A stretch of DNA of 46,334 nucleotides, from the NCBI GenBank assembly GCA_017645585.1, contig JAGCOF010000051.1:1-46334 (forward strand), in the 5' to 3' direction. A program made the position numbers and the translations under genes. The stretch is from Bacteroidales bacterium (GTDB taxonomy: Bacteria > Bacteroidota > Bacteroidia > Bacteroidales > P3). The notes beneath the pieces are model-generated. The model was given only the letters and a program-made list of their open reading frames with translations. It was not told where the DNA came from and searched no databases. This document shows, piece after piece, positions 20,275 to 35,884 of the stretch; position 1 is the stretch's first letter; every line of letters begins with the position of its first letter.

Positions 20275-21567
20275 TTACAACTTGATGATTATTTTTTTGC
20301 TGCCGGCAGTGCCAAGGAGGTAGGTGCCGGAAGGCAAACCACTGACATCGAGGGTGATTGCCTGATTGTCTGATTGCTTGATTGCTTGAATGAGCACGCG
20401 CCCGTTGAGGTCGAGCAGCTCGACGCGGTCGCCGGCGTTGAGGCCGTCGAGGGTCACTCGGTCGCTCGCGGGGTTGGGATAGACGGAAAGGTCGGAGGTC
20501 TGGGAGCGGAGGTCCGAGATGCCGTTATAGCCCTCGGGCAGCGAATGTATCTCGGCAATGTAGTTGACCAGCGAGTGCTGCAGGAAGCGCCAATACTCAG
20601 GCAGTTTGTCGGTGGAGAGCGTCTTGGAGGTAGAAAGCTCCATCGTCACCTCGAGGCAGTTGTGGTAGTAGTTCATATAATCCTGGCGGCCGCCGTGGAT
20701 GACGTACCAATCGCCGCCGGCAATGACGCCCGAGTTGGTGACGTCGCGAAAGTGGGTGCTGCTATAGGTGCGCGAGGTGTCCACAAAGCGGTGGCACACC
20801 TCCTGCCACCATTCAGCCGCGGGATGTGGGTTGGTGGTGGAGGTAAAGCAGTCCCAGGGGTAATTCATTACCTCGCTGCCGCCGTGCAGGTTGGCGCTGA
20901 GCTTGAAGTGGTGGGCCGTAACGTAGGCAATCATCAGCTCATTCTCCTGCTGCAAGGGTTCCTTGGTAGCGCCAAAGGGGTCGGGGTAGTTGCGGTTGAG
21001 GTCCACACCGTTGGCATTGTAGCGCTGCGAGCCCTGCACCGTGTGGTTGCCGCGGTGGTAGGTGCCGTCGGGGTTGGCCAGCGGATTGATACTGATGCGC
21101 GTGCGGTTGATGAGGTCGGTGTATTGCGGATTGGTGCCGTAGCCATGCAGTAGCGTGTCGATGAGGCGCAGCATCATGACGTAGCCCGTCACCTCGTCGC
21201 CGTGGATGGTCGAGCTGTAGAAAAACTCGGGCCGATAGAGGTCATCGTCGGTCTGCGGCTCGATATACATGCTCAGTATCAGGCGTCCCTCCAGGCTGGT
21301 GCCTATGGTGTCCACATGGCACAGCGCGGGGAACTCCTGAGCCCAACGGCTCATCATGGCCAGGTAGGTCTCGTAGGTCGGGTAGCGGTCCCACGAGGCC
21401 ATCTGCTCCAGCGAGGAGGCCATATTGAGCACCTTGGGAGCCGGCTCGTCGACCGGCGGGAAAGCGTCGGGACGCGGCTTCAACACTCCTTGGGCCACAG
21501 CCGAAAGCGAACAGAACGAGGCGGACAACAGCAAGCCAATGCCGGCAAAAAGTATCTTTTTTCTCAT
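20275..21567 (-). CDS. M14 zinc carboxypeptidase with T9SS sorting domain
   Basis: This 430-residue exported peptidase has a signal peptide (1-26). The M14 domain carries zinc ligands H122 and E125 (T-I-H-G-D-E) and H228 (N-L-H-G-G), N-P-D-G-T, N191-R192 and a catalytic Glu near 306-310 (C-L-E-V-T-M-E-L). Residues about 360-430 are a type A T9SS sorting domain (Y-P-N-P-A-S-D, L-N-G-R-V, G-T-Y-L-L) ending in a basic K-K-I-I-I-K-L. The enzyme should be exported through the type IX system and anchored or released outside. Two low-complexity arrays lie in its 3' part: 7-nt units at 20490-20517 in the linker, and 8-nt units at 20355-20394 in the sorting domain. Confidence 0.93.
   Translation of the reverse strand: MRKKILFAGIGLLLSASFCSLSAVAQGVLKPRPDAFPPVDEPAPKVLNMASSLEQMASWDRYPTYETYLAMMSRWAQEFPALCHVDTIGTSLEGRLILSMYIEPQTDDDLYRPEFFYSSTIHGDEVTGYVMMLRLIDTLLHGYGTNPQYTDLINRTRISINPLANPDGTYHRGNHTVQGSQRYNANGVDLNRNYPDPFGATKEPLQQENELMIAYVTAHHFKLSANLHGGSEVMNYPWDCFTSTTNPHPAAEWWQEVCHRFVDTSRTYSSTHFRDVTNSGVIAGGDWYVIHGGRQDYMNYYHNCLEVTMELSTSKTLSTDKLPEYWRFLQHSLVNYIAEIHSLPEGYNGISDLRSQTSDLSVYPNPASDRVTLDGLNAGDRVELLDLNGRVLIQAIKQSDNQAITLDVSGLPSGTYLLGTAGSKKIIIKL
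20355..20394. repeat. Tandem 8-nt repeat inside the M14 gene, five units
   Basis: Units start at 20355, 20363, 20371, 20379 and 20387 (consensus TGATTGCT). On the coding strand they encode I-Q-A-I-K-Q-S-D-N-Q-A-I within the sorting domain. Confidence 0.75.
20490..20517. repeat. Tandem 7-nt repeat inside the M14 gene, four units
   Basis: Units start at 20490, 20497, 20504 and 20511 (consensus GGTCNGA). They encode S-D-L-R-S-Q-T-S-D-L, the linker between catalytic domain and sorting domain. Confidence 0.65.
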
Positions 21568-21956
21568 AATATACCTTATTAATACATCAATAACGTCCCA
21601 ACGGCCCGTTTATTGCACAGCCGCCCCAACATTTCATCATCGCCGCCCTGAGTCCGCCTGTTCGACAACAATTCTTCAGCAGTTCTTCAACAGTTCTTCA
21701 ACATTTTCTTGAAGAACTGTTGAAGAACTGCCGTTGTACGGTTGTTGAAAGGCCGTTCTTTGGAAAAAAGCAAAGAACGACCAAAGAACGGCCGAACAAC
21801 GGACGAAGAATGGCAGTTCAACGGTAGTTCAACGCTTTTTTCCGTCGAAATACCGTTGAACTACCGTTAAGCTACCGTTGAAATGTCGGAGCATATATGG
21901 TCGGACACAATAAAAGGGCGGCGATGTCGTTATATGACATAAATTCTTAAATACTG
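21568..21956. other. Divergent intergenic region filled by a nested palindrome
   Basis: No gene is seen here. Most of the region (21638-21926) is a nested palindrome made of 11-nt units, listed as a separate repeat. Confidence 0.7.
21638..21926. repeat. Nested palindrome with 11-nt repeat arms (locus A)
   Basis: An outer 12-bp stem, CATCGCCGCCCT (21638-21649) with its complement at 21915-21926, encloses three inner inverted repeats. These are a perfect 22-bp stem (21680-21701 with 21709-21730, 7-nt loop), a perfect 13-bp stem (21751-21763 with 21781-21793) and a perfect 15-bp stem (21820-21834 with 21854-21868). The sequence runs in 11-nt register. Units start at 21671, 21682 and 21693; at 21731, 21742 and 21753; at 21770, 21781, 21792, 21803, 21814 and 21825; and at 21852, 21863 and 21874. 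Confidence 0.85.
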
Positions 21957-22940
21957 ATGAATAACCTTAAATACTATCTGTCGCTGGTGGAGCGCATTTT
22001 CGAGGAGGAGAGCTTCGTGGCCGAGCCGCGCGAGCTGTACGAGCCCATCGACTATACGCTGCGCCTCGGCGGCAAGCGCATACGCCCCACCCTGCTGCTG
22101 GCGGCCAACGCCCTCTTCGGCGGCAACACGGACGAGGTCCGCGGCGCCGCCCTCGGCATCGAAACCTTCCACAATTTCACCCTGCTGCATGACGACCTGA
22201 TGGACCGCTCGCCCCTGCGGCGCGGCCAGCCCACCGTGTACCAGAAATGGGACGAAAACACCGCCGTGCTCAGCGGCGACACCATGTATGCGCTGGCCTG
22301 GCGCTACTTCCTGCGCCAACCGTCGCCTCGCCTGCAGGAGATCCTGCGGTGCTTCTGCGAGACCGGTATCGAGGTGTGCGAAGGACAGCAGAAAGACATG
22401 AACTTCGAGCGCCTGACGCTGGAGGAGGTGACGCTGGACGACTATATGGACATGATACGCCAGAAGACCGCCGTGCTGCTGGCCGGCGCGCTGAAAATCG
22501 GCGCCCTCTACGCCACTTCCCGCGACGGCGACATCGAGAGGCTCTATGAGTTCGGATTGCATCTGGGCCTGGCCTTCCAGCTGCAGGACGACCTGCTCGA
22601 CGGCTATGGCGACACCGCCGTCTTCGGCAAGAAGACCGGACAGGACATCCGCGACAACAAGAAGAGCTACCTGCCCCTGTTAGCCATGCAGATCGGCAAC
22701 GACAGTCAGCGGGAGGAGCTGCTGGCCCTCTTTGCCGCCAAGGACAACCTGGACGAGGAGGAGAAAGTGCGCCGCGTGATGGCCCTCTACGAGACGATGA
22801 ACCTCAAGAGCGCCGTAGAAGAGGCCATCGAAAAGGAGTTCAGGACAGCCGAGCAATGCCTCGACACCATCCCTGCCGACGAGGCCCTGAAACTGCCCCT
22901 GCGCGAACTGATGGAGACCCTCGCGGGAAGAAAAAAATGA
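21957..22940 (+). CDS. Polyprenyl (isoprenoid) diphosphate synthase
   Basis: This 327-residue trans-prenyltransferase condenses isopentenyl diphosphate onto allylic diphosphates. The first Asp-rich motif is D79-D80-x-x-D83 (H-D-D-L-M-D) followed by R-R-G; the second is L-Q-D-D-L-L-D around 218-224. G-G-K-R-I-R-P lies near 38-44. It is probably the farnesyl or geranylgeranyl synthase of the organism, but chain length cannot be read with confidence. The next genes are an ExbB/ExbD operon with a separate promoter. Upstream is the locus A palindrome. Confidence 0.93.
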   Translation: MNNLKYYLSLVERIFEEESFVAEPRELYEPIDYTLRLGGKRIRPTLLLAANALFGGNTDEVRGAALGIETFHNFTLLHDDLMDRSPLRRGQPTVYQKWDENTAVLSGDTMYALAWRYFLRQPSPRLQEILRCFCETGIEVCEGQQKDMNFERLTLEEVTLDDYMDMIRQKTAVLLAGALKIGALYATSRDGDIERLYEFGLHLGLAFQLQDDLLDGYGDTAVFGKKTGQDIRDNKKSYLPLLAMQIGNDSQREELLALFAAKDNLDEEEKVRRVMALYETMNLKSAVEEAIEKEFRTAEQCLDTIPADEALKLPLRELMETLAGRKK

Positions 22941-29265: not shown

Positions 29266-29386
29266 TGCCTGACGCCGTCTTTTCATCAACCATTTTGCAA
29301 CAGTTCTACAACAGTTCTTCAAGAAATTATTGAAGAACTGTTGTAGAACTGTTGTAAAAGTTATGTAGATATAACGGAGTCAGGCA
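29266..29386. repeat. Nested palindrome with 11-nt repeat arms (locus B)
   Basis: An inner 30-bp stem (29293-29322 with 29330-29359, one G-T pair, 7-nt loop) is built of 11-nt units starting at 29298 and 29309 (consensus CAACAGTTCTW) and, inverted, at 29330 and 29341. An outer 13-bp stem (29266-29278 with 29374-29386, one mismatch) encloses it. It lies between the rho stop and the serC promoter and could end rho transcription. Confidence 0.85.
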
Positions 29387-33037: not shown

Positions 33038-33101
33038 CAAAATAAATCCAAATGGCGCAATATTTTTTTCACACTCCGGCCTCCCGTTCTCTTTTCTTCG
33101 A

Positions 33102-33250
33102 CTGTTTAACGGCTGTTTAACGGTTGTTTAATGGAGAAAAGCGTCAAACAACCGTTAAACAGCCATAGAACACCCATCGAACAGCAATCGTTGTCCCGCT
33201 GTTTAACTACTGTTTAACTACAAATCCTAGTTAAAAAGTAGTTAAACAAC
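33102..33250. repeat. Palindromic 11-nt repeat arrays (locus C1/C2)
   Basis: Units of 11 nt start at 33102, 33113 and 33124 (CTGTTTAACGG type), at 33145, 33156, 33167 and 33178 (consensus NRAACANCNNT), and at 33200 and 33211 (TGTTTAACTAC). Two inverted repeats result: a perfect 19-bp stem (33111-33129 with 33146-33164) and a 20-bp stem with one mismatch (33201-33220 with 33228-33247). Confidence 0.85.
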
Positions 33251-33289
33251 CCTTGTCCGCTTGTTAAAAAACGGTACCCAACATGATTT

Positions 33290-33432
33290 AACGGCGAATT
33301 ACGCGAATTATGCGAAGGCTTGCGCAGTATGATATTTCAAACGAGTTACTCGAATTGAAGTGGCCCGTCAATTCGAGTAATTCGTTTTTTATTGACCTGC
33401 GTAGCTTCGAGTAATTCGCTCAATTCGCCGTT
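33290..33432. repeat. Nested palindrome with 9-nt units (locus C3)
   Basis: An outer 11-bp stem (AACGGCGAATT at 33290-33300 with 33422-33432) encloses a 20-bp stem with one G-T pair (33339-33358 with 33368-33387). Units of 9 nt are seen at 33294, 33303 and 33312 (GCGAATTAN type) and at 33342 and 33351. The period here is 9, not 11. Confidence 0.75.
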
Positions 33433-33444
33433 ACAAGTAGGCCC

Positions 33445-33556
33445 CAACACCTACTTTTCGCCTGCTGTTCTTTTACTGTTCTTTTACTGTTCTTTTACAA
33501 ATCTAAAAGAAATGTAAAAGAAATGCGGTTAAACACCTGAAAAACAGTAGGTGTTG
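33445..33556. repeat. Nested palindrome with 11-nt units (locus C4)
   Basis: An outer perfect 11-bp stem (CAACACCTACT at 33445-33455 with 33546-33556) encloses three exact copies of TGTTCTTTTAC starting at 33466, 33477 and 33488, and two copies of TAAAAGAAATG at 33504 and 33515 that pair with them. Confidence 0.85.
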
Positions 33557-33764
33557 ACACCTACCTGCTGCAGCGGTAAAAAGACGGGTTCCTGTACAAT
33601 AAAATGAGATTTGCCCCGTTATCTTTTTGAGGATTCATTGCCCCGTTATTCTGCTAACCAAGGATACGGCGGGTTTGACTCTGATGCACCGCTTTTTTGG
33701 GGGACGAGGCCATGTAGTAAACCTACCCTTAAAGAGCCATTAAACAAATAATAAGAAGAATGTT

Positions 33765-35328: not shown

Positions 35329-35384
35329 AAAGTGGAAAGTGGAAAGTGCAAAGAGGCTTTCAACTTTCCACTTTCAACTTTCAA
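35329..35384. repeat. Inverted 7-nt repeat array between tRNA and ruvX
   Basis: Four 7-nt units starting at 35329, 35336, 35343 and 35350 (consensus AAAGTGG) are followed by four complementary units at 35357, 35364, 35371 and 35378 (consensus CTTTCAA). Together they form a hairpin of about 25 pairs that ends nine bases before the ruvX ATG at 35393. Confidence 0.85.
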
Positions 35385-35392
35385 CTCATGTC

Positions 35393-35806
35393 ATGGGACG
35401 CATAATGGCCATAGATTACGGACGGGTGCGCACAGGGTTGGCGGTGACCGACCCCATGCGTATTATTGCCACCGCCCTGACGACGGTGGAGACCCCTGCC
35501 CTGCTGCCCTACCTCAAGGACTACTGCGCGCGCGAGGAGGTGGACCTTTTCGTGGTGGGCGAAGCCAAGCGGATGGACGGCAGCCCCAGCGAGTCGATGC
35601 AGTATATCGAGCCCTTTGTGGCCGAACTGCGCCAGACGTTCCCTGACAAGGAGGTGGCCCGGGTGGATGAGCGCTTCACGTCGAAGATGGCCTTCCAGAC
35701 GATGATCGACAGCGGCCTGAAGAAGAAAGACCGCCGCAACAAAGGCATGATTGACCAGATTGCAGCCACCATCATGCTGCAAGACTATATGAGAGGTGAG
35801 AGGTGA
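35393..35806 (+). CDS. ruvX: Holliday junction resolvase-like RuvX/YqgF
   Basis: This 137-residue RNase H-fold protein acts in pre-16S rRNA 5' processing. It has the start M-A-I-D-Y-G (Asp of the active site), V-V-G-E-A, D-E-R-F-T-S and a late D-Q-I-A-A-T-I-M-L-Q-D. The ATG at 35393 is chosen; the upstream frame reads through the 7-nt hairpin and the tRNA. The last five residues (M-R-G-E-R) and the stop are encoded by a 7-nt repeat array that continues past the gene, so repeats flank it on both sides. Confidence 0.92.
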   Translation: MGRIMAIDYGRVRTGLAVTDPMRIIATALTTVETPALLPYLKDYCAREEVDLFVVGEAKRMDGSPSESMQYIEPFVAELRQTFPDKEVARVDERFTSKMAFQTMIDSGLKKKDRRNKGMIDQIAATIMLQDYMRGER

Positions 35807-35825
35807 AAGGTGAGAGGTAAAAAGT
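35791..35825. repeat. Tandem 7-nt repeat at the 3' end of ruvX
   Basis: Units start at 35791, 35798, 35805, 35812 and 35819 (consensus GAGAGGT). The ruvX stop codon lies inside the second unit. Confidence 0.8.
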
Positions 35826-35884
35826 GGACACGCTGGCCACTTATAAGGAAAAAACTTAAAACTAAAAACCAAGAAAAAAGAACA

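Follow-up and report, generated by a model that had tools for sequence, protein, structure and literature searches.

Tandem and palindromic arrays with an 11-nucleotide step in the intergenic DNA of a Bacteroidales lineage

Background

Locus A is the intergenic region at 21638-21926 of contig JAGCOF010000051.1, assembled from a Bacteroidales bacterium (assembly GCA_017645585.1); the whole stretch of 46,334 nucleotides that was analysed is referred to below as the window. The locus is built from 11-nucleotide (11-nt) units in tandem and in inverted order, which raises the question of what kind of element it is and which of its properties, sequence, pairing or period, is maintained. A repeat is ordinarily identified by its sequence, whereas what stays constant here is chiefly the length of the step, close to one helical turn; the repeated 11-mers (hereafter words) differ by site and by species. 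We find that locus A belongs to a set of 11-nt-step arrays specific to its lineage. About half of the arrays are palindromic, many words are in use, and in two genomes the arrays lie on the promoter side of genes. We tentatively propose, with rather less than even confidence, that the locus is a member of a repetitive family with an 11-base-pair (bp) unit, perhaps a boundary or spacer at the level of DNA that grows in 11-bp steps, a function that we can only infer from sequence and position.

Results and discussion

Locus A and its repeat family

The strict 11-nt register that an earlier reading of the bare letters (the sequence-only reading) had described at locus A is borne out: the locus matches itself at lag 11 at a fraction of 0.532, compared with a mean of 0.250 and a maximum of 0.331 in 1000 dinucleotide shuffles (z 10.5), and z is 6.3 at lag 22, 2.7 at lag 8, 1.7 at lag 12, 0.4 at lag 10 and -1.8 at lag 7. 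Six consecutive units from position 21770 do drift in register, from GCAAAGAACGA to TAGTTCAACGC, as described; the statement that nearly every base falls into such units was too strong, about half of the positions matching at lag 11. The locus had further been described as one nested inverted repeat. The perfect stems exist, as does an outer one of 12 bp, but they belong to three adjacent hairpins, A, B and C (Table 1), each made of 11-nt units and each with its own word, so that a single nested RNA is rejected; the reported stem lengths of 13 and 15 bp are correct, whereas the longest stem has 23 bp and not 22. The outer stem is real but is probably not part of the repeated unit and looks incidental: the L002 and L003 copies share sequence with the left arm, and the right arm lies inside a promoter-like motif.

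A DNA search with locus A gave at least 95 matches in the window's genome (the best 40 of 60 candidates scored), and the covariance model R1 gave at least 115 matches on both strands, at no fewer than 59 places in that genome (150 of 939 candidates scored). R1 matched 15 of 41 genomes, namely 15 of the 25 within the genus and none of the 16 from other families; because the model carries words of the window's genome, this search is not a word-free test. From 30 fetched loci, those whose loop has 7 nt and whose inner stem has at least 17 of its 20 positions paired gave 24 alignment rows of the family of hairpin A (family A); with L026 dropped as a duplicate of L009, the remaining 23 copies align without gaps over 115 columns. 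Read towards the loop, each arm consists of TGACTCC followed by four units of GTTCNNCNNCN, of which the two inner ones are nearly invariant, partly owing to the way in which copies were selected, and the outer ones vary at the N positions. The exact family-A word was found neither in viral contigs nor in genome contigs, a set from which the window's genome or near ones may be missing.

Within the unit of family A, both arms keep the positions G-T-T-C, C7 and C10, and the intervening positions vary. This would suit arrays of operators for a sequence-specific family of regulators, with sites one helical turn apart, but we find such a reading scarcely credible, as over half of the divergent gaps carry arrays in the window's genome and in its relative G023, and as each genome has many unlike words. 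In the window's genome, period-11 words form five families, occurring in 14, 7, 4, 2 and 2 gaps, besides eight single words; in G023 there are families in 17, 14 and 4 gaps and five single words. Hairpins of other relatives have the same 11-nt design with other words, among them TGTTCTACGGT in the genome G019, GTTCTTCAGTA in G023, GTATTACGGTA in locus L072 and CTTCTCATATA in L076. Even at one orthologous gap, flanked on the left by a class I E/Q tRNA synthetase gene and on the right by a gene whose protein has a weak LEA_2 match, three words were read in different species: GTTCTTCAGTA in L086, GTTYNNCGGTT in L090 and L091, and, in the window's genome, the word of that genome. Three gaps were chosen because hairpins were known there from some species (the gene is present in 50, 53 and 50 genomes, and contig ends cut a few gaps). 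Among the 30 best loci for each, 11-nt hairpins were called in 5, 6 and 8, with different words, several of them without evident likeness. Word families and one-off words coexist within a genome, each of the species that were read has words of its own, and the register survives the drift of bases.

Period 11 in intergenic DNA of the genus

A scan with the polyprenyl synthetase protein encoded beside locus A gave 39 loci, 32 of which (L072-L103, 70-80% identical) come from Bacteroidales or Bacteroidetes metagenome-assembled genomes, several of them from the ruminant gut; from protein identity and a tree we infer that these 32 belong to the same uncultured gut genus as the window. The other seven (L104-L110) served as an outgroup. 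Tandem Repeats Finder was run on the intergenic sequence of the window's genome (425 kb, window included), of G023 (400 kb) and of the 32 loci (537 kb), and, outside the genus, on the seven outgroup loci and on 20 stretches of eight genomes from other families.

Arrays of period 11 account for 46 of 78 in the window's genome, 51 of 94 in G023 and 54 of 132 in the 32 loci, and a second period, 7, for 18, 17 and 28, respectively. Together with the multiples 14, 21 and 22, these periods make up 249 of the 304 arrays, periods 8, 9 and 10 making up most of the remainder. Tandem arrays cover 8 to 12% of the intergenic bases; five dinucleotide shuffles gave on average at most 1.0 array per set. The step is strict: 141 of 155 11-nt arrays are free of indels, at 87.5% match. 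Within 160 nt, 27 of the 52 arrays of period 11 or 22 in the window's genome and 31 of the 51 in G023 have a partner in inverted orientation; the hairpins that were read have two arms around a centre of 3-10 nt. Outside the genus, period 11 was found in one of six arrays in the seven loci and in none of six in the 20 stretches.

An intergenic autocorrelation peak at 11 nt in this genome and its relatives was the test set beforehand for the 11-nt design, and the peak is there. In the 32 loci it stands at lag 11 (z 13.9), followed by lags 21 (10.5), 22 (9.7) and 7 (8.2); in the outgroup, lag 11 has a z of 1.3 and no 11-period hairpin was found. Among ten further species of the genus, sampled at 80 kb each, lag-11 z is at least 3.5 in seven, and lag 11 is the top lag in three. 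A different periodicity, of 9 and 27 nt, is strong in the intergenic DNA of the G002 stretches L345-L348 (lag 9 z 10.6, lag 27 z 10.0), where it replaces that of 11 nt.

Placement relative to genes and promoters

Placement was scored in stretches not chosen for hairpins, the window being included in its genome's set, and in gaps of at least 100 nt unless stated otherwise. In the window's genome, 11-nt arrays occur in 19 of 34 divergent, 16 of 51 codirectional and 1 of 10 convergent gaps (16/29, 15/44 and 1/8 with the window left out), in G023 in 19/28, 8/63 and 1/11, and in the 32 loci in 26/39, 10/61 and 0/18 (divergent versus rest, p 0.0087 in the window's genome, 8.5e-8 in G023 and 4e-16 pooled). 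Pooled genus gaps of 200-500 nt gave 44/60, 21/65 and 1/15, and the counts for 11-nt hairpins in the window's genome and G023 are 21/62, 13/114 and 1/21. The corresponding array counts outside the genus are 0/12, 3/39 and 0/6 in the seven loci and 0/24, 0/42 and 0/7 in the eight genomes. Lag-11 z in divergent gaps is 22.0 in the window's genome, 24.0 in G023 and 24.1 in the 32 loci, compared with 0.1 outside the genus.

Aligned on 237 promoter motifs, the self-match at lag 11 stands at 0.278 at -40, begins to climb at -60, is highest at -140 (0.438) and has fallen only to 0.31-0.35 at -300 and further upstream; downstream it is 0.25-0.32. At least one promoter motif is present in 57 of the 64 divergent gaps with an 11-nt array. 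Loci selected for hairpins gave the same order of elements: a TAnnTTTG box separates the hairpin from the start in 123 of 171 start flanks (12.7 with shuffled segments), the median distance from hairpin centre to box being 124 nt (59 of 123 at 100-129 nt), and is on the far side of the hairpin in 11 of the 171. The 111 of 116 hairpin gaps with both neighbours comprise 64 divergent, 43 codirectional and 4 convergent ones, and the 119 control gaps 36, 65 and 18; in the codirectional hairpin gaps the hairpin centre lies at a median of 65 nt past the upstream stop. In the window's genome and G023, then, the arrays sit between a promoter and its upstream neighbour, above all in divergent gaps.

Locus A itself is an example. 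The motif ACAATA-N15-CGTTA precedes the polyprenyl synthetase gene and a second one, with one mismatch and read by eye, faces the zinc carboxypeptidase M14 gene on the other side, so that the interval between two divergent promoter-like motifs is taken up by the locus. The form ACAATA-N12..20-CGTTA occurs 16 times in the 425 kb of the window's genome, 14 times within 160 nt upstream of a called start, and 0, 0, 2, 0 and 0 times in five shuffles of the same sequence. Similar ACAATA-CGTTA forms precede the polyprenyl synthetase gene in L079, L095, L096, L101 and L103.

The 7-nt arrays, counted in gaps of at least 60 nt, are found in 51 of 286 codirectional gaps (only 9 of the 51 with a promoter motif), 6 of 110 divergent and 10 of 69 convergent ones. 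The arrays could be a neutral product of mutation, in which slippage would duplicate 11 bp in underwound, untranscribed DNA and 7 bp in transcribed DNA, and palindromes would form by strand switching. The independence of word, the single-word arrays and the separation of 7-nt arrays, mostly in codirectional gaps without a promoter motif, from 11-nt arrays upstream of promoters in the window's genome and G023 all agree with this, as does the covariation in G019 described below, which template switching would give. We consider it decidedly unlikely nonetheless: the stretches of eight other-family genomes hold no period-11 array despite their divergent gaps, drifted units keep a strict register, and multi-copy families require copying between sites.

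Pairing of the arms

According to the sequence-only reading, period and pairing are kept and the word is not, and the stems should show compensatory changes. The period is indeed kept while words change; pairing gave a mixed result. The hairpins compared were those in register (17 in G019, 20 in G023 and 32 in the window's genome), with even-loop and out-of-register ones left out. In G019 the variable columns of the inner stem are paired at 0.859, against 0.710 expected, a value that none of 2000 shuffles reached, but neither G023 (0.650, against 0.693 expected) nor the family of the window's genome shows compensatory change. Outer columns pair below expectation both in G019 (p 0.004) and in G023, where none of 2000 shuffles gave so low a value; the window's genome has neither the inner excess nor the outer deficit. 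By eye, the outer mismatches of G019 and G023 are 2-nt blocks in 11-nt register that mark left versus right arm, a pattern that fits descent of the copies from each other and not selection for perfect pairing. Perfect arms reach 50 bp in G019.

These results, together with placement, bear on whether the hairpins act as RNA, be it as terminators, processing hairpins or precursors of small RNAs. Locus A has a strong predicted RNA fold (-147.6 kcal/mol, z -15.7, an energy that none of 200 shuffles reached), the inner stem covaries in G019, the codirectional hairpins follow shortly on the upstream stop, and in ten other species 11 of 35 convergent gaps carry 11-nt arrays. In the window's genome and G023, however, a third of divergent gaps and only 1 of 21 convergent ones contain an 11-nt hairpin, a placement that also speaks against intrinsic terminators, and the arms of family A do not covary. 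No Rfam family matched at gathering score apart from tRNA elsewhere, and a known RNA family was rejected; the 27 Rfam matches with E no higher than 1 all concern microRNA models and do not reach the cut-off of the model. An RNA function is thus less supported, by placement and by covariation, and appears very improbable. The suggestion that period 11 reflects one turn of A-form RNA is likewise weakened, because in the two best-sampled genomes more than half of the gaps with 11-nt arrays are divergent, where the predicted transcripts of the two neighbouring genes do not include the array, and convergent gaps contribute few, an argument limited by the ten other species, which lack that placement.

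Mobility and comparison with known repeats

The arrays might also be functionless, non-autonomous mobile elements, either miniature inverted-repeat transposable elements (MITEs) or relatives of the repetitive extragenic palindromes (REPs), with an internal minisatellite; the 11-nt unit would then be incidental, and the transposase is hypothetical. There are multi-copy families, and family A has recurrent ends, TGACTCC and GGAGTCA, degenerate in many copies; in copies from G019 and G023 the left arm can be told by eye from the right, as would be the case for paralogues; a gap that is filled in L102 (L102:14934) has no 11-nt hairpin in L078; and BrickBuilt of Porphyromonas gingivalis provides a published parallel (PMC4596501). 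We nevertheless rate this origin as somewhat unlikely. No target-site duplication was found in the 23 copies (mean 0.91, 0.95 when shuffled, p 0.58), and the Y1 transposase associated with REPs (RAYT) has no match in the window's genome (assembly 83% complete) or in G008. Single-word arrays exist, the same period recurs with unlike words, and in two genomes placement is divergent. Y1 transposases are present in 12 of the 19 genus genomes searched, a set outside which G019 and G023 fall, and the hairpin-bearing G012 has three. At the site of L102:14934, L078 appears by eye to carry 7-nt repeats in place of the hairpin.

Loss of the nuclease SbcD was rejected as the reason why the palindromes survive: among 12 genomes sampled, five with and seven without SbcD, hairpin density does not track it (Mann-Whitney p 1.0). 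SbcD scored over the cut-off in 12 of 31 genomes (6 of 19 within the genus) and in 4 of 16 of a second set, with no match in the window's genome, G019 or G023 (the first 83% and the second 81% complete). In many species of the genus it is below cut-off or unmatched, and in others it is present.

In those parts of the open-licence PubMed Central literature accessible to us, 11-nt palindromic arrays in Bacteroidales were not found, and the nearest published relative in kind is BrickBuilt. PMC4596501 describes it as a minisatellite and MITE of P. gingivalis, itself of the Bacteroidales, with 19 copies in one strain, a 23-nt repeat, a leader, a tail, terminal inverted repeats and, in some copies, target duplications; unit number differs between strains and base changes are localised around 2-4 nt sites. 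Both are tandem minisatellites inside an intergenic element of a Bacteroidales host. Here, in contrast, there are many words and an 11-nt unit, the inverted arms themselves consist of such units, a single family occupies at least 59 places, and no target duplication was found in 23 copies; a period of 23 was seen in 1 of the 132 arrays of the 32 loci and in none of the window's genome or G023.

REPs and bacterial interspersed mosaic elements (BIMEs), as portrayed in PMC3733652, are dispersed, high-copy intergenic palindromes, some of them species-specific and often close together in opposite orientation; REPs measure 20-40 bp, mostly end in a GTAG or CGTC motif and lie mostly between unidirectional and convergent genes. 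The dispersal in high copy is shared. The family-A element, however, is about 115 nt long, the window's genome has no Y1 match, and in that genome and G023 the arrays are enriched in divergent gaps, the reverse of REPs (the ten other species are not reversed). A sequence periodicity of about 11 bp in bacterial genomes has been tied to negative supercoiling (PMC4132750 and PMC7537859); its step length is equal, but the present arrays are discrete, local and tandem. We file them as a variant of intergenic repetitive palindromes and minisatellites, and as members of neither BrickBuilt nor the REPs.

A possible boundary between promoters

Returning to the boundary or spacer that we tentatively favour, we hypothesize that arrays would grow and shrink by duplicating about one helical turn (about 11 bp, a pitch often associated with negatively supercoiled DNA), that inverted arms would arise through template switching, and that 11-bp steps would be tolerated or favoured upstream of promoters because helical phase is kept. 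On weaker grounds, the finished palindromic array might act as DNA and not as RNA, forming a boundary between neighbouring promoters. It could do so, for example, as a cruciform that absorbs the negative supercoiling which divergent transcription generates, or as a binding site for a structural protein specific to the lineage. In a further-reaching form, which we consider unlikely, promoter-upstream DNA in lineages of the genus would be selected for period (one helical turn) and mirror arrangement instead of sequence, a word-free code of lineage-specific boundary elements with a second, 7-nt class in transcribed spacers.

A number of our results weigh against a boundary. Selection for a cruciform predicts covariation of the arms, and the arms of family A vary independently: over the 23 copies, 79.5% of cells are paired both as observed and when shuffled, and pairs changed on both sides number 21, compared with 19.4 shuffled (134 of 500 shuffles as high). 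The predicted bend of the words, 36.6 degrees, is below that of shuffled words, 42.0 degrees (143 arrays; calculated with a dinucleotide wedge table), and selection for curvature was rejected. Hairpin sites are common to species in 7 of 37 cases, versus 1 of 25 control gaps, an excess that is not significant (p 0.13), and a second test, with too few groups, gave p 0.51. In the ten further species, 11-nt arrays occur in 7 of 61 divergent, 15 of 150 codirectional and 11 of 35 convergent gaps, a difference between divergent and convergent gaps that runs in the opposite direction (p 0.03), so that the divergent preference is not genus-wide; just seven of these species reach the lag-11 z given above. 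Codirectional gaps outside the genus are not quite free of 11-nt arrays (the 3 of 39 above) or of lag 11 (z 3.3 in those with a promoter motif). Both promoter motifs are present in only 30 of the 64 divergent gaps with an 11-nt array. The 32 loci surround one orthologous gene, hence their gaps are partly orthologous and not independent. Finally, gene calls are codon-model calls made by script, not annotations, and promoter motifs are consensus matches.

If selection does act on the period, the arrays would offer one of the few cases in which DNA is maintained for its mechanical properties, and with them a natural system for studying how divergent promoters are insulated; if they are mutational, they would reveal slippage with preferred quanta of 11 and 7, peculiar to one lineage.

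Further features of the window

The sequence-only reading had also noted hairpins of similar design in other gaps of the window; they are present at four places, one of them a second copy of hairpin A (Table 1).

Table 1. Features at locus A and other 11-nt hairpins of the window
Feature	Position	Strand	Details
Zinc carboxypeptidase M14 gene with Por secretion tail	20275-21567	-	Divergent left neighbour of locus A
Promoter-like motif GCAATA-N15-CGTTA	21591-21616	-	Faces the M14 gene; one mismatch to ACAATA-N15-CGTTA
Outer 12-bp inverted repeat	21638-21649 (left arm), 21915-21926 (right arm)		Perfect
Hairpin A	21648-21762	.	Word GTTCTTCAACA; perfect 23-bp stem 21679-21701/21709-21731, 7-nt loop; R1 matches both strands
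Hairpin B	21731-21802	.	Word GTTCTTTGGTC; perfect 13-bp stem 21751-21763/21781-21793
Hairpin C	21797-21882	.	Word GTTCAACGGTA; perfect 15-bp stem 21820-21834/21854-21868; R1 match 21782-21895
Promoter-like motif ACAATA-N15-CGTTA	21907-21932	+	Upstream of the polyprenyl synthetase gene; encloses right arm of outer stem
Polyprenyl synthetase gene	21957-22940	+	Divergent right neighbour of locus A
Second copy of hairpin A	29269-29383	.	Between end of rho gene and start of aminotransferase class V gene
Hairpin	33081-33197	.	Word GTTTAACGGCT
Hairpin	33199-33248	.	Word GTTTAACTACT
Hairpin	33444-33557	.	Word GTTCTTTTACT

Between two of the 11-nt hairpins, at 33289-33433, lie different inverted repeats (GCGAATTACGCGAATT, AAACGAGTTACTCGAATTGA). 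The window also contains 7-nt tandem arrays, of AAAGTGG at 35334-35386, which forms a hairpin, and of TGAGAGG at 35790-35826, and around 45426 there is a perfect 25-bp palindrome with a 3-nt loop and without 11-nt periodicity.
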